NCBI GenBank assembly: GCA_001897835.1
Contig: MKUN01000006.1
Span: 10,118-74,117, forward strand
Reading direction: 5' to 3'
Origin: Bacteroidetes bacterium 46-16
GTDB taxonomy: Bacteria > Bacteroidota > Bacteroidia > Chitinophagales > Chitinophagaceae
Length of the DNA stretch: 64,000 nucleotides
Of this stretch, positions 45,671-58,337 are shown piece by piece (position 1 is the first letter of the stretch; each line of letters begins with the position of its first letter). Position numbers and translations under genes: made by a program. Below the pieces are notes generated by a model, which worked only from the letters and a program-made list of their open reading frames with translations, searched no databases and was not told where the DNA came from.

Positions 45671-48034
45671 TTACATCTTCACTAACTTCTTTACCGTACT
45701 GCCTCCTGTACCTTTAAATGTAATGTAGTAGATGCCTGCCGGCAGGGATTTAACATTCACCTTAGCCTGTCCGTTGCTGATGTGTTGCAGCAATACCTGC
45801 TGGCCCATGCTGTTGGTGATGGCCAATGAGGAGTATGCGCCCTTTTCTGTCATCACCATCAACTCAGTGGTCGCCGGGTTAGGGAACATATCGATCCTGC
45901 TTTGCTGGTTGATGCCAGCCGCATTTAGCGGCTGACCAATGATATTCTCGGTGGTATTGGTCATGACCACTTCATTATCATCAAAATAAATACCGGCCCG
46001 GTTGTGTATCAGGGTACCATCGGGCAGGCCATTCTTTGCATTGATGGTATAAGTGAACATACCCGTACAATTTTCAGGGTGATGTACACTGTCCGGCAGG
46101 TTGATATTCGGGAAGTCAAATTTTATGATATTATGTATACCATCACTGTATTTCACAATATTCATAAACGCCGAAGCAGCCTTTATTTGCAAGCTATTAA
46201 AGTCGAGTTCAGCAGGTATGGTATCCAGTACATAAATATTTGTGGCCGTATCGTTACCTGTATTCTCAAACTCGATGGAATAGGTAAGCTTCGTGCCTGC
46301 AGCAATATAACCATCCGGGTTCACCTGTATATGGTTAGGATCGAAGGAGCCGGTAATGGTATCATGTATGATCACGGTATTGTTGGTCGTATCCATGTCA
46401 CCTGTTGCAGGCGTTACTGTTATCATGTAATCAACGGGGGTACCCACTACAAACCATGGCAGTGGCCTTTCTATAGAGCCGTGCAAGGCAGGCGTGGGCG
46501 CCGTAAGTGCCGAGAGGCTATTGATATCCCAGGTAATAGTAGAGGCGGTGTGCCCAACTGCGGGGGGTGTACTGCCACTATAGGCATAACCGGGATCGAA
46601 AGTAACGGTGACCGTAGCATTCTGCGGCGCGCAGTAGGTATTGCTGACCAGCATATCGATATTGCCGGTATGCCGGCCTGAAATAGTTGTTGCCGAAATT
46701 GCAAGGTCGAAATCGGAAGGGTTACCGCAGACTATGGCAAAAGATTGCGGTGCAATGTTGTTGGCGGTTTGCAGCGTGTTGCTTATCACACCCGATTGCG
46801 GGCAGTTTATGGAATAGCCCGGGGCTAAGGAAACCGGTTTAAAATCGTAGACGTCACCGGTATTACCGTATGTCGTATAATAAAAGCCCGAGGTAGCCGG
46901 TATGGTATCAACAGGCACGCCATTCGAATCGACCTCTGTAAGTGAAGGTTGAACGATATCGAGCTCACCTGCATCCTGTACACAATTACTGTTGGCATCG
47001 TAGAAGAAGCCGATATAAATGGTATTGCATAATACATGCTCATATGAGAACTGTATAGAGTCGATAGCCGCTGCGCCATTATACAGAACCATTTTAACAC
47101 TGTAGGTACCTGAAAATGCATACACGTGATCAAATGTTGCATGACCGCCGAAATTACCGCTTGTTACAGCGGCTGAGTCTGTACCGGCATCACCATACCA
47201 TGTCTTCACCCCCATGCCGGGTGTATATATTGCCGTGTTCGCTACAAGGTGGGGACCTGAACAATTATGGTAACTGCTAACAGAGAAGTTATTCCCGGCA
47301 GCGGCAACCGGTGGTGTCCAGCGGTAAACCTGGCCGGAGGCCGGCTTTTGATCAATATCTGTTGTAAAGAGCGCTGATGAAGGTGTTGGGCTTGCTGTTG
47401 CATCAGAAAGCGTTTGCCAGTCGCTGGTGCTATTGAACAGGCCTATTGTAGCACCACCACTCAATGTATCATAAGGCGTAGGACCCTGGTCGTACTGAAA
47501 GTCGATCACATTATCCGTCTCATAGAGCGATACCTGCATTGAGATAGCATTGGTAGCACTGGAGCTGCTCCAGCGCCAGCCGCTATATTCAAACTTGAAT
47601 ATCCTGTTAGGCGCGGTACCCAGCAGGCTGTATGTAGCGGTTGCACTATCACCACCCAGGTCATCCCATAAAGGCATCAGCATGGGCCCAATGCTATCGG
47701 CAACGAGTGTGTCGTTAATAAGGTCATTGGCTGTAAAAGGTTTAAAACTCAATTGCCCGTTGGAACTGACAGTTATATCATTATATGATCCATTAGCAAA
47801 ATTGAAAGTGAAACCAAGGTTGATGGTCGTGTCATGGTTGTTCTGCTGTATCGTTGCCAGTGGTGAACCGGCTAATGCTGTATATGCCGTATTGAATGCA
47901 GAAAAGGAATAAGATGCTACAGTTTGCGCATGCAGTGCGGTAACGCCGCATGTGAGCATAAAGCATATTGTACAAATGAGACCTTTTGCACTTGTCGAAG
48001 CATTGCGATTTCGGGTAATTTTTTTTGTATTCAT
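45671..48034 (-). CDS. T9SS-exported protein with a conserved-repeat (DUF11/DUF7619-like) domain
   Basis: A surface protein of 787 residues. Signal sequence ends TCGVTALHAQ. The N-terminal ~210 residues form a beta-sandwich (NNHDTTINLGFTFNFANGSYNDITVSSNGQLSF). A PKD-like segment follows (about 260-330), then a spacer. Residues ~550-690 (SFDPNHIQVNPDG ... LTYSIEFENTGNDTATNIYVLDTIP ... HNRAGIYFDDNEVVMTN) match the conserved-repeat domain found before sorting signals in Bacteroidota. The end (MFPNPATTELMVMTEKGA ... TVKKLVKM) is a T9SS type A sorting domain. Probably an adhesin-like cell-surface protein; no activity is assigned. Confidence 0.86.
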   Translation of the reverse strand: MNTKKITRNRNASTSAKGLICTICFMLTCGVTALHAQTVASYSFSAFNTAYTALAGSPLATIQQNNHDTTINLGFTFNFANGSYNDITVSSNGQLSFKPFTANDLINDTLVADSIGPMLMPLWDDLGGDSATATYSLLGTAPNRIFKFEYSGWRWSSSSATNAISMQVSLYETDNVIDFQYDQGPTPYDTLSGGATIGLFNSTSDWQTLSDATASPTPSSALFTTDIDQKPASGQVYRWTPPVAAAGNNFSVSSYHNCSGPHLVANTAIYTPGMGVKTWYGDAGTDSAAVTSGNFGGHATFDHVYAFSGTYSVKMVLYNGAAAIDSIQFSYEHVLCNTIYIGFFYDANSNCVQDAGELDIVQPSLTEVDSNGVPVDTIPATSGFYYTTYGNTGDVYDFKPVSLAPGYSINCPQSGVISNTLQTANNIAPQSFAIVCGNPSDFDLAISATTISGRHTGNIDMLVSNTYCAPQNATVTVTFDPGYAYSGSTPPAVGHTASTITWDINSLSALTAPTPALHGSIERPLPWFVVGTPVDYMITVTPATGDMDTTNNTVIIHDTITGSFDPNHIQVNPDGYIAAGTKLTYSIEFENTGNDTATNIYVLDTIPAELDFNSLQIKAASAFMNIVKYSDGIHNIIKFDFPNINLPDSVHHPENCTGMFTYTINAKNGLPDGTLIHNRAGIYFDDNEVVMTNTTENIIGQPLNAAGINQQSRIDMFPNPATTELMVMTEKGAYSSLAITNSMGQQVLLQHISNGQAKVNVKSLPAGIYYITFKGTGGSTVKKLVKM

Positions 48035-54058: not shown

Positions 54059-57000
54059 TTACTTATAATTCTCGTTATAGAAATTAAGGTAAGGCCCGTC
54101 TGTTTTATCGGCAAGCAGCTTCAGGTAGTTCGTTGCCGATATGATGAGCACCTTGTATTCGCCGGGCTTATATTCCCTGAATATCTGTGCTTTGGCCTTC
54201 AAGGCATTCATATAGCTTTTGGCTGCCGCAGCATTATCAAATTTCTTAATAGCTACAACGCCAAGGCCTACATTAAGCATGTCGATATTAGTGGCCAGGT
54301 GCTCTTTGCTGTACTGGAAGGTATTGAAATCACCTATAGCTGCCTTTACGCCCATCGACCTGGCCTCGTAACCCGGAAATACGAAAACACAGTAATGCTC
54401 ATCCTGTGGCTTGTAAGTATATTTATCCGGGGGCGAAAGTTTTACGGCATTTTTCATATCCACATCCTTATTGGCTGCTGCCGGCTTATCTTTCGCATTA
54501 CCGGTAGCTGCACTATCTGCAGGCATAGCCGGTATTTTCGCCTCTGTTTCTTTCATGGTGTCTGTAGGCAGTATGTGCTTTACTTCCTTCGGCTTCACCC
54601 TGTCTATATAGCGCAGCACCGCCTCGGCCCACTCACGGAGCGAATCGTTCACATTGGTCTTCAGAAAGTCATTCAGCAGGGTATCTGCGGTATTATATTC
54701 ACCGGTGCCTGCCAATGCCGAGCCCTCTACGATAGTAAGGCGGCCATTGTATTTGGGGTCGGGATATTTCTTCCTGGCCACCCTTACCCGCTGCAATACC
54801 TCGGTGTACTGGCGCTTCATCAGCAGATCATAAGTAGCATCATAGTACTCCTGTAAAGACTGCAATTTGTCGCCATCCATACCGGCACCATCTTCCGAGG
54901 AAGGCCGTACCAGTTCTGCATACTGCGAGTTCGGGTACTGTTTCAGCAGCTGTGCACTATAACCGCTTGCCGCATCAAACTTGTTTTGGCGTATAGCTAC
55001 CAGGTAGCGCAGGTAAAGGTCATGCGCTTTGTGCTCATGCTGGGGGTAACGGTAGTCAAGGGTGTCCAGTGCTTTTATGGCAAGGGGATAATCCTCCAGC
55101 TGTATCACATATGCATTGGCCAGGTCAATATAGGCACGTTGTACCAACCTCCTGGCCTTATCCTTTTGCGCATCAGTATTCGGTATCAGCGCCAGCAGGC
55201 TTTCCTCGGTAGGTATTCCGTTTTCATCTACCTCCAGGGCTGCAGCGTCATTATCCTCAGAGCCGGGCTGTTGTGCATTCACATTGCTGTTGCTCACAAA
55301 TCCTATGGCCGATATCCTTCTCCAGTTGTCGGTAAGCGGGCGGTTACCCCATTTTCTTTTAAAATCGTTATAGCCCTGCTGTACCAGCGCGGGATTTGAG
55401 AAATACCAGGCAACCACTGGTTCTGCATTCCCCACTTGCTCCGCAGCCACCACACCGGCATTCTCTGCACGATATATACTGTCGGCCCTGCGGTCTTCCA
55501 GCATCCTGATATACCTGCGCACCGCACTGCGCTGTTCTCTTTCGTCGAGGGCTGCCAGTGCCAGCAGGCTATCCTGCACATGTATGGTCATTACAGGGCC
55601 TGCCACATCGCCCAGTACCGGGCTGCGGCGCAGGGCCAGGTCCACTTCCTTATCATCCTGCACATACTTCGAGTAGGCCCCTGCACTGTCATAGGCTGCT
55701 TTAGCCGCTATGTAATCTTCTTTATTATAGTATATGCTTCCCAGGTGGGCATAAGATATGGCCTTCTGTTTTTTAGTGGCTTTAGGTGACTTGATACCCT
55801 TGTCGAGGTAGGTTATCGCCTCATCGGCATTACCCGTTTTTAGCGAGAACATACCCAGCAGGTAATATACCTGGTCGTAATAAGGTGCATATTTCCCATC
55901 TTTCAGCAAATGCTTCATGGACGATACTACCTCTCCCTGTTGTTTGCCATCTCCAATCGACATGATACAATCGGCCATGTGCTTACGGGTGTAAAAATCC
56001 ATTTCTATTTTCGGATGCAGGTCCAGCACTTGCTGATAGCTGGCTATAGCAGCTGAATCTTCATGACGCGACTGGTATATCTGCCCGGCCAGGAAAGCAC
56101 AACGCTGGCGGAGCATATTACTCAGTTCAGCATCCTGCGATGCCACGGTCAGTTGACCGCTTGCTGCTTTATAATTGCCTTCTTTCAGCTTTATATTGGC
56201 TTTCTCAAGTGCCAGCCTGCCCTTAAGCGATTCGGGGAAATTAGGGTCTGCCTCTACAAGGTCCAGCACCGATTCAGCATTACCTGTTTCATTGATCTGT
56301 GTAAAGGTGCGTGCCAGCCACAATATAGCCTCGTTATGCACGCTCTGGTGCTTCAGGAAGTCCAGCATCGATTTCTTGTCTTCTTCCAGTATCGATGGCC
56401 CTTCGCCTTTGTTGCTTTTATGCTCTTTTTCTTTTTTCTTGTTTTGCTCGTAAATACTTACCGTATAGCGGAAAGCAATAATTGCATTCTGGTAATCGCC
56501 CTTGTAATAATAGGCTTCGCCGAGCAGCATATACAGGTCATCACCCCATTTGGTGCGGGGATCGTGTATCTGTATACCCACCGATACCTTGTGGATAATA
56601 CTGTCCATATCGGGCGCTATGGCCGATGAGTCCCGGTCGGGGTTGAAGGGGAAAAGGGCGATCAACGAATCATAATTCTCTTTGTTGATCCGCTGCATGT
56701 TCAGCAGCGCCTCGTCCATCTTTTTATTGGCATTAAAGTAATAATTGTAGCGGGTAAAGGTGTTCTGTATCTGCCTTCTTGGTACCCCCCACCGCTTTTT
56801 AAGCATGCTCTCATTGCTCCATGCCTTATGTTTCTTCTCTATCTTCAGTTTTAGTGCCAGGTCCAGCTTTTGCTGTTTTTCCTTTTCTTTTACCTTCCGG
56901 GCTTTTTCTTTCTTTTCCTTTACTTTGGCAAGGCTGTCGGTACGGGCCTGCCGTATCGCTTTCATACTATCCAGCGCTTTTTTGCGCACCGCGGTTATAC

Positions 57001-57616
57001 TGTCCGTATATTGTTTTCTTGCATCCCTTATGCTGTCGCTTATTGCTTTACGCGCGGCTATCATACTATCGCTATAGGCTTTGCGCACGGCACGTATGCT
57101 ATCCAGCCTCGTCTGCCGCAATACGGCCACACTGTCCTTATAGCGTTTACTTTCCCGGTATTTCCTCTTTGCAGCGAGTTTTTCAGCCCGCGCCTTCTGC
57201 ACCGCTTTTATACTATCTGTTCGCTCCTTACGCTCAGCCCTTACACTGTCGATCACATGCTGGCGGGCAGTTTTTATAGAATCCAGGCGGCTTTGGCGCA
57301 CCTCCTTTATACTATCCAGGCGGTGTTGCCGGAACTTTGCTACGCTATCTTTATAATGCTTGCTGTTACGGTACTTCCTGATAGCGGCCAGGCTGTCGGT
57401 CACCTTTTTGCGGGCCGCGGTCATGCTGTCTATCCGGTGCTGGCGCGCTGCTCTTATACTGTCCTGCGTATGCTTTTGCGCAGCATGGAGGGCCTCAAGG
57501 GCAGCTTTTCGGGCGCGGGCAGCACTATCTGCATTCGCCTTCTGTGCCCATACAGGCTGTGTAGCGAAAATAGATAAAAAAGAAAATATTAATACTAAAA
57601 CTAATTTATTGCGCAA
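54059..57616 (-). CDS. TPR protein, PorW/SprE-like T9SS component, with an N-terminal 11-residue repeat array
   Basis: A periplasmic protein of 1185 residues. The start codon is TTG (MRNKLVLVLIFSFLSIFATQPVWAQ, signal peptide, no lipobox); no ATG is available. Residues 45-240 form an array with Asp-Ser every 11 residues. From ~285 the sequence matches the PorW/SprE pattern: FTRYNYYFNANKKMDEAL, then NKENYDSLIALFPF, then DPRTKWGDDLYMLLGEAYYYKGDYQNAIIAF, then TPR repeats to ~640 and another block near 850-1060. The C-terminal ~100 residues (YCVFVFPGYEARSMGVKAAIGDFN) form a small alpha/beta domain. PorW/SprE is needed for T9SS secretion in Porphyromonas and Flavobacterium. Assignment is by motif; the array is unusual. 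Confidence 0.8.
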   Translation of the reverse strand: MRNKLVLVLIFSFLSIFATQPVWAQKANADSAARARKAALEALHAAQKHTQDSIRAARQHRIDSMTAARKKVTDSLAAIRKYRNSKHYKDSVAKFRQHRLDSIKEVRQSRLDSIKTARQHVIDSVRAERKERTDSIKAVQKARAEKLAAKRKYRESKRYKDSVAVLRQTRLDSIRAVRKAYSDSMIAARKAISDSIRDARKQYTDSITAVRKKALDSMKAIRQARTDSLAKVKEKKEKARKVKEKEKQQKLDLALKLKIEKKHKAWSNESMLKKRWGVPRRQIQNTFTRYNYYFNANKKMDEALLNMQRINKENYDSLIALFPFNPDRDSSAIAPDMDSIIHKVSVGIQIHDPRTKWGDDLYMLLGEAYYYKGDYQNAIIAFRYTVSIYEQNKKKEKEHKSNKGEGPSILEEDKKSMLDFLKHQSVHNEAILWLARTFTQINETGNAESVLDLVEADPNFPESLKGRLALEKANIKLKEGNYKAASGQLTVASQDAELSNMLRQRCAFLAGQIYQSRHEDSAAIASYQQVLDLHPKIEMDFYTRKHMADCIMSIGDGKQQGEVVSSMKHLLKDGKYAPYYDQVYYLLGMFSLKTGNADEAITYLDKGIKSPKATKKQKAISYAHLGSIYYNKEDYIAAKAAYDSAGAYSKYVQDDKEVDLALRRSPVLGDVAGPVMTIHVQDSLLALAALDEREQRSAVRRYIRMLEDRRADSIYRAENAGVVAAEQVGNAEPVVAWYFSNPALVQQGYNDFKRKWGNRPLTDNWRRISAIGFVSNSNVNAQQPGSEDNDAAALEVDENGIPTEESLLALIPNTDAQKDKARRLVQRAYIDLANAYVIQLEDYPLAIKALDTLDYRYPQHEHKAHDLYLRYLVAIRQNKFDAASGYSAQLLKQYPNSQYAELVRPSSEDGAGMDGDKLQSLQEYYDATYDLLMKRQYTEVLQRVRVARKKYPDPKYNGRLTIVEGSALAGTGEYNTADTLLNDFLKTNVNDSLREWAEAVLRYIDRVKPKEVKHILPTDTMKETEAKIPAMPADSAATGNAKDKPAAANKDVDMKNAVKLSPPDKYTYKPQDEHYCVFVFPGYEARSMGVKAAIGDFNTFQYSKEHLATNIDMLNVGLGVVAIKKFDNAAAAKSYMNALKAKAQIFREYKPGEYKVLIISATNYLKLLADKTDGPYLNFYNENYK
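56936..57463 (-). repeat. 11-residue (33-base) Asp-Ser repeat array in the PorW-like gene
   Basis: Asp of a Asp-Ser-(I/M/L/V) motif falls at residues 52, 63, 74; 90, 101, 112, 123, 134; and 161, 172, 183, 194, 205, 216, 227. Within each of the three runs the spacing is exactly 11. The units are of the kind RLDSIKTARQH. A 23-residue stretch starting KYRNSKHYKDSVA recurs as KYRESKRYKDSVA at ~151, showing a block duplication. Such a hendecad period favours a long straight coiled coil. Confidence 0.85.
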
Positions 57617-57727
57617 GCTAAATTACCCTTTATTACATTAACTAAATAACGCGAAAAATATTATAATTGCATAGCTTTCCCGGAAAAATTCTCAACACCT
57701 GCAATTGCTTCAAAAATAGGCAAAAAT

Positions 57728-57851: not shown

Positions 57852-58337
57852 ATGAGCAAGCTGGCTTTCATACGTTCGGGCATTTTAAAGAAGCTGAATA
57901 TTAATTACAGGGTAGTATTTATCGATGATGAGTCTTTGCAGGAAGTAGCCAGCTTTAAACTAACGATGCGCAAGCTGTACATTTTGCTTAGTACGCTCTT
58001 TGTGGTCATTGTAACGCTTACCGTATGTGTGCTGCTGCTTACGCCGCTTAAGTACTATGTGCCCGGCTATGGCAGCGACAAGACGCATATGCAGGTGATC
58101 AGGCTGAAGCGCAACATGGATTCATTATCCGATCTTGTAGCTGCCCAGCAGCTATATGAAGATAATATAAAGAATATCGTACGCGGCACTTATAATGGCC
58201 AACCCGACACTACGAAACTCGACCTCAACCAGGTGCGTAAAGAAGAGATGAGCATCTTTCCGCAAACGGATGAGATAAAAAAGAAAGCGATAGAAGAAGT
58301 AAGGCAGGAAAACAAGGCTAAGAAGAATGCGAAATAA
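57852..58337 (+). CDS. Membrane protein resembling the N-terminus of Bacteroidota M23 peptidases, catalytic domain absent
   Basis: A protein of 161 residues. The sequence INYRVVFIDDESLQEVASFKLTMRKLYIL, the membrane helix (about 44-66) and LLTPLKYYVPGYGSDKTHMQVIRLKRNMDSL are the typical N-terminal anchor of Bacteroidota M23 endopeptidases (family pattern FKLS...TPL+.YIPGY). After that comes a coiled segment (NMDSLSDLVAAQQLYEDNIKNIV) and a charged end, with no HxxxD or HxH motif: the LytM domain is missing. The next gene starts 9 bases later, so it is complete as it stands. It may have a scaffold role in cell-wall assembly. Confidence 0.75.
   Translation: MSKLAFIRSGILKKLNINYRVVFIDDESLQEVASFKLTMRKLYILLSTLFVVIVTLTVCVLLLTPLKYYVPGYGSDKTHMQVIRLKRNMDSLSDLVAAQQLYEDNIKNIVRGTYNGQPDTTKLDLNQVRKEEMSIFPQTDEIKKKAIEEVRQENKAKKNAK

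Follow-up and report, generated by a model that had tools for sequence, protein, structure and literature searches.

The gene examined here lies on the minus strand at positions 54059-57616 of a 64,000-nucleotide stretch (the window) of contig MKUN01000006.1 from Bacteroidetes bacterium 46-16, and is predicted to encode a homologue of PorW/SprE of the type IX secretion system (T9SS) whose N-terminal part carries a regular array of Asp-Ser pairs. The open reading frame (ORF) list gave a product of 1185 amino acids with a TTG start, which was also present in relatives. A putative signal sequence at residues 1-24 (57545-57616), followed by Q25 (WA-Q) and containing no Cys, was recognised by sequence inspection and was similar in the N-termini of the relatives. 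The array (residues 30-234, 56915-57529) contains 16 D-S-(I/L/M/V/A) motifs, 11 residues apart within runs. Two boxes are located within it, KYRNSKHYK (box 1, residues 81-89, 57350-57376), a predicted helix break inside a 16-residue gap, and KYRESKRYK (box 2, residues 152-160, 57137-57163), a predicted helix break 71 residues past box 1, as judged from the sequence and AlphaFold2. The array is followed by a Lys/Glu-rich linker (residues 235-270, 56807-56914), predicted to be helical to residue 267 with low confidence beyond about residue 260, and then by the PorW/SprE core with tetratricopeptide repeats (TPRs) at about residues 271-1007 (54596-56806), which was delimited with profile, Pfam and PDB matches and AlphaFold2. 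The C-terminal region (residues 1064-1185, 54062-54427) was present in relatives with separate matches to about residues 1062-1185 and was predicted to form strands and helices.

The product had been named PorW/SprE-like in an earlier note made from the sequence alone, and the searches bore this out. NCBIfam model NF052312 (T9SS PorW/SprE, equivalog) matched the ORF with 426.2 bits (E 2.9e-127, cut-off 250) and the top PDB match was SprE (8gl8 chain I, phmmer E 4.6e-18, best stretch residues 732-955). The TPRs of the core were matched by Pfam PF13181 (E 8.9e-12, 44.6 bits, cut-off 25.7). SprA, the T9SS translocon protein, is encoded in the same genome (TIGR04189, 2610 bits) and a Por_Secre_tail protein is encoded within the window at 45671-48034. 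The N-terminus was hydrophobic with WAQ at residues 23-25, based on inspection and not on a signal-peptide predictor; this and the homology to periplasmic PorW/SprE would fit export from the cytoplasm. The N-terminal region had no Cys and thus no lipobox. The product of 54059-57616 is accordingly a homologue of PorW/SprE, but with the Cys missing it is no lipoprotein of the type described for this family.

Asp-Ser pairs were found at residues 30, 52, 63 and 74, at 90, 101, 112, 123 and 134, and at 161, 172, 183, 194, 205, 216 and 227. Residues 52-227 (57463-56936) hold 15 of these pairs in runs of three, five and seven with an exact spacing of 11 residues, which is the array as it had been noted at 56936-57463, and the pair at residue 30 is the 16th. 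A total of 12 of the 15 gaps between neighbouring pairs were of 11 residues. Shuffling the residues 100,000 times gave at most 2 such gaps, and placing the 16 DS units roughly at random 100,000 times gave at most 6. The gaps between the runs were 16 and 27 (11 + 16) residues long and both hold a box of the form KYR(N/E)SK(H/R)YK. Across 49 such 16-residue segments from the arrays of 31 relatives, Tyr9 and Ser12 were each present in 47 and Tyr/Phe15 in 48. Comparison of the array with itself gave the best match at an offset of 71 residues (5 × 11 + 16) with 60 of 134 residues identical, compared to 66 of 194 at an offset of 11. The window protein has a box-to-box distance of 71, as do 8 of 12 further relatives that were checked; the exceptions were L002 with a distance of 120, L060 and L062 with one box each and L061 with none by the pattern used. 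The block duplication suspected from the sequence was supported by both the self-match and the kept distance. The two array blocks were identical at 82 of 141 DNA positions and Tandem Repeats Finder reported no 33-base array, its sole report being an unrelated 25-base stretch, so the duplication is real but old, and not a product of recent slippage. On the opposite (plus) strand of the array, long open frames were present at 56821-57279, 56870-57577 and 57360-57641, which are probably a by-product of regular codons on the other strand and not genes.

According to passages of PMC8729774 and PMC12871550, exported proteins of Bacteroidota are O-glycosylated at the sequon D(S/T)(A/I/L/V/M/T). All 16 pairs of the array fit this sequon, a meaning of the D-S-hydrophobic motif that the earlier note had missed, and the whole protein, with 27 sequons, had the most of 355 ORFs sampled. 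The sample consisted of 20 stretches of 20 kb of this genome and the window (464 kb in total), with the exported and cytosolic classes set by a crude hydrophobicity rule and not by a trained predictor. In the exported class (115 ORFs, PorW left out) 320 sequons were observed against 134.9 expected (ratio 2.37), compared to 130 against 112.3 (1.16) in the cytosolic class (158 ORFs), and the 81 ORFs with further transmembrane segments had 81 sequons against 55.4 expected. The ratios of control motifs in the exported class were 0.62 for E[ST], 1.01 for N[ST], 0.98 for [ST]D and 0.56 for D[ST] followed by a polar residue. The excess of sequons in exported ORFs was read as the mark of the general O-glycosylation system in this organism.

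A match to the protein (E ≤ 0.001) was obtained in 57 of 59 genomes of relatives, and in 140 of 147 genomes of a wider draw of the family (G072 at 6e-4 only). The array was read in 33 proteins (L001-L012, L041-L054 and L056-L062); L039 was equivalent to L002 across the compared ORF, and the N-terminus is missing from the fragment L055. A further 27 N-termini of the family were read and had no array; 12 of them belong to complete proteins and 15 to short pieces, three more of the 18 pieces having no readable start. For family members outside those read, matches to the query started after residue 240 in the rows listed. A maximum-likelihood tree of the core with 51 rows (33 with the array, 12 array-less family members and six from other families) placed all 33 array rows behind one branch with a support of 100/98. 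N-terminal sequons numbered 8-25 (mean 14.9) in the array rows and 0-1 in the 12 array-less family rows of the tree. L060-L062 showed less regular spacing and were sister to the other 30 array rows in the midpoint-rooted drawing, and the array-less L065 had three D-S-A in a short cluster with no 11-residue period. In the N-terminal parts of 31 proteins, 489 D[ST] were counted, with the next residue being A/I/L/V/M/T in 470, S in six and another residue in 13. A search with the array only in 39 genomes (own and relatives) produced matches in nine at E ≤ 0.001, every listed one in a frame of PorW size (1157-1252 amino acids), and the own genome had a single array match at E ≤ 10. No other ORF among the 355 of the 464-kb sample had at least three in-register D[ST] at any period from 7 to 19. 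The possibility that the array is a mobile module was rejected, as its listed matches were confined to PorW-size frames with one match in the own genome. The earlier note had also raised the case that close homologues all carry the same array with a known structure; the array was indeed present in close homologues, but the sole PDB chain named SprE/PorW in the search (8gl8_I) matches the core. In a distant PorW of Dysgonomonas (L040:4878-8582), a short Lys/Glu-rich C-terminal segment was observed with DSI-ESL-DSI 11 residues apart, perhaps a convergent small version of the array design.

Conservation was determined for 175 aligned 11-mer slots in 12 pairs of relatives. D was kept in 160 and S in 159 of the 175 slots (91%), and both were kept in 154 with a pairwise range up to 22/22. 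Arg at position 7 was kept in 156 slots, and the other positions were kept in 77-106 (44-61%). Silent codon differences were found in 71 of the 160 kept D codons and in 82 of the 159 kept S codons, six of the latter being AGY versus TCN. The third residue was A/I/L/V/M/T/S in 459 of 461 in-register D[ST] slots (28 dropped), compared to 68 of the 88 slots without D[ST], and these 88 slots held Asp alone in 19 and Ser/Thr alone in seven. D, S and the third residue therefore tend to be gained or lost jointly, which is the behaviour expected for a sequon. Since slots of related proteins are not independent, the p-values serve as an indication only.

AlphaFold2 with residues 25-420 and two sequences (predicted template modelling score, pTM, 0.21) predicted helices at about residues 26-83, 86-153 and 159-267 with the breaks inside the two boxes. 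The array blocks had mostly a predicted local distance difference test (pLDDT) score of 70-84, with 55-64 near the second break. A full-length run with three sequences showed the same break places with a mean pLDDT of 55, and due to this low confidence it was not used in fold comparison. Long charged helices are easily predicted by AlphaFold2, so the predicted helices are modest evidence. Foldseek with the N-terminal model, which was of modest confidence, produced one meaningless match (E 7.6). Three turns of a helix take up very nearly 11 residues, so that all serines within a run would share one face, with D at about -154 and S at about -56 degrees from the hydrophobic centre. Positions 3 and 6 of the 11-mer are hydrophobic, position 8 is frequently Lys, and position 10 is mixed, with Arg as its most frequent residue (93 of 356). 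At 0.15 nm per residue, the three helices would be about 9, 10 and 16 nm long when fully straight. For the rod of some 25-30 nm suggested in the earlier note, the helical character agreed with the prediction, but a single continuous rod did not, and the length would be reached only if the three helices were placed end to end. A single continuous coiled-coil rod was rejected because the helix was interrupted at the boxes in both AlphaFold2 runs, and a canonical hendecad coiled coil was not well supported with Arg as the most frequent residue at the third core position (10).

Overall, the array probably represents O-glycosylation sites arranged in tandem along a long, helical N-terminal extension of PorW, with the glycans regularly spaced on one face; this is judged from sequence and prediction, and we infer that the array serines are occupied by glycans. 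It was concluded that two constraints act together, an amphipathic helix that would set the period and a sequon that would set D-S. After Sec export and removal of the signal peptide, the mature N-terminus would be a basic helix which the KYRxSKxY boxes divide into three pieces of about 58, 68 and 109 residues, and these may be placed end to end or fold back. A periplasmic general O-glycosylation system would then add a glycan to each D-S-hydrophobic site, so that glycans would be lined up regularly beside the hydrophobic stripe, with the spacing set by helix geometry and D-S fixed by the sequon. The core would be attached to the SprA translocon at the outer membrane as in SprE of Flavobacterium johnsoniae, and the extension would project from the N-terminal side of the core, presumably from the translocon into the periplasm. 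Its most likely role would be that of a glycan-protected stalk or spacer which keeps PorW stable and soluble and sets its distance to the surroundings. A bolder version, on which doubt slightly outweighs confidence, is that a dedicated helix-ruled glycan array evolved in this clade. In this version, a T9SS translocon subunit would have a stalk with 8-25 O-glycans at three-turn intervals on one face, folded or hinged at 71-residue units, forming a structural periplasmic glycan brush in which Arg7 may pair with the glucuronic acid of the glycan core.

Several results weigh against O-glycosylation as the explanation of the array. D-S was not kept everywhere, with both residues in 154 of 175 slots and in only 8/12 for the worst pair. 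Position 6, which is outside the sequon, was hydrophobic in 294 of 354 distinct D-S 11-mers compared to 38 of 87 without D-S, and the corresponding fraction was 0.40 for other exported sequons of the genome (background 0.34). Because position 6 covaries too, the coupling of the third residue was counted as support only and not as proof, and the D-S slots may be a wider structural unit. The conservation of Arg7 (156 of 175) came close to that of D and S, which the sequon does not explain, and position 7 was R/Q/K irrespective of D-S (340 of 354 D-S 11-mers and 83 of 87 without). Charge pairing of Arg7 with a hexuronic acid of the glycan is possible, since a trisaccharide that includes a hexuronic acid is common to the O-glycans of most species characterised (passages of PMC12871550). 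The sequon is short and common, and its D-T form alone had a ratio of 1.34 in the cytosolic class. Ser and Thr in the arrays of 31 proteins were at 485:4, compared to 161:154 in the other exported sequons of the sample, so the sequon alone is insufficient to account for the array. Finally, the Bacteroides O-glycosylation locus adjoins metG (passages of PMC12871550), and no flippase/glycosyltransferase locus of Bacteroides type was found in the ten ORFs beside metG (nine downstream and one on the other side), the sole place checked; one of these ten ORFs had no Pfam match.

A purely structural hendecad rod or coiled coil, in which D, S, the hydrophobic residue at position 3 and Arg7 would be unmodified packing or capping residues, is unlikely but would account for some of these points. 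The helical prediction of AlphaFold2, the near absence of Thr from the array, the covariation of position 6 with D-S and the conserved Arg7 are all in line with it, but D and S at about -154 and -56 degrees fall outside the core and the would-be core position 10 is most often Arg. Moreover, position 1 was E in 25 of the 88 slots without D[ST], and E occurred with S/T in only 4 of the 88, compared to 461 D[ST] slots, which is hard to explain if D was merely a surface residue. No solved coiled coil matched the model (the one hit was at E 7.6), which is weak evidence given the modest confidence of the model.

The lipobox was scored with a simple regular expression, and L046 and L048 of the array rows had no signal region in the available DNA. 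Of the 31 array rows whose signal region could be read, 29 had no lipobox, and the same was true of 25 of the 27 array-less family rows (54 of 58 in total). The four family matches could reflect either true lipoboxes or plain cysteines of a signal peptide. The pattern was also matched in two of six rows of other families. A lipobox is stated to be common to all PorW members in passages of PMC8754138 and is also implied by the name of the NF052312 model. Judging from the N-termini, this generalisation does not seem to hold in this family, suggesting a non-lipoprotein PorW for most of the family members read, contrary to the published statement. The missing lipobox and the TTG start had both been noted as departures of the window protein; the former is shared with the array-less members and TTG occupied the equivalent position in 7 of 16 ORFs compared, window ORF included (L001, L002, L003, L005, L006, L044 and L051). 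The array as compensation for a lost lipid anchor was rejected as a simple story, given that 25 of 27 array-less members also had no lipobox.

Amphipathic 11-mer helices can bind surfaces, and the 3-11 helices of alpha-synuclein are the comparison here. A helix of this kind anchoring the non-lipidated PorW to the outer membrane, lipopolysaccharide or peptidoglycan would fit the net charge of +31 over residues 48-234 (53 K/R, 22 D/E), the conserved Arg7, the frequent Lys8, the hydrophobic positions 3 and 6 and the absence of a lipobox. It is nevertheless improbable, since the array does not track anchor loss when 25 of 27 array-less members are also without a lipobox by the regular expression used, and the hydrophobic stripe is narrow and a strict D-S is unnecessary for binding to a surface. 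A nearly neutral low-complexity expansion kept by slippage, to which the variable number of sites (8-25) and the less regular spacing of L060-L062 could be attributed, was already disfavoured and is very improbable, as D and S were 91% kept against 44-52% silent codon change, the 71-residue super-repeat is common to several genera, no 33-base DNA tandem repeat was detected and the array rows are all on one side of one tree branch.

The array was not described in the titles and displayed abstracts of the papers listed by the literature searches, with most subscription journals being outside the search. According to passages of PMC12871550, what the O-glycans of Bacteroidota do is largely unknown, and a subunit of a secretion machine in which up to 25 similar sites are in register or close to it is a clear test object for glycan function. 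The array lets occupancy, spacing, the helix context of the transferase and the effect on stability and secretion be addressed.

Other genes were also observed in the window and near metG. The Por_Secre_tail protein at 45671-48034 (minus strand) is a T9SS cargo-type protein which also has DUF7619 and contains 13 O-glycosylation sequons in 787 amino acids. The divergent neighbour of porW at 57852-58337 (plus strand) encodes 161 amino acids with one hydrophobic segment and no Pfam match; we take it to resemble the N-terminal part of Bacteroidota M23-peptidase-like proteins, with the peptidase domain absent. Near metG on contig C53 of the own genome (L111:10167-15433), a cassette was found with a 5-hydroxymethyldeoxyuridine (5-hmdU) DNA kinase helical domain, a thymidylate-synthase-like protein, Nmad2, TPR-S and a Thoeris ThsB TIR-like protein, which looks like a set of DNA hypermodification and defence genes.

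Among known systems, serine-rich-repeat glycoproteins and mucin-like stalks carry many O-glycans on an extended segment that is Ser/Thr/Pro-rich and non-helical, whereas the array is predicted to be a basic alpha helix in which one site falls on every three turns. The best PDB match, SprE of F. johnsoniae (8gl8 chain I), has a homologous core and is described in passages of PMC10994853 as an O-glycosylated TPR scaffold on SprA; eight residues were changed there, among them S538, where glycosylation was identified, and T550, where it was predicted. Its chain has 870 residues, it is called a lipoprotein, and those passages mention no array. PorW of Porphyromonas gingivalis belongs to the same family and is named in passages of PMC8729774 as one of the outer membrane-associated proteins in which most O-glycosylation sites were found or predicted; it differs by its lipobox, and its C-terminal D6 domain binds PorN, as described in passages of PMC8754138. 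The substrates of general O-glycosylation in Bacteroidota are likewise exported proteins with the D-S-hydrophobic sequon, but their sites are in soluble regions and no fixed helical period is stated in passages of PMC12871550, whereas the sites of the array are in register in one predicted helix.

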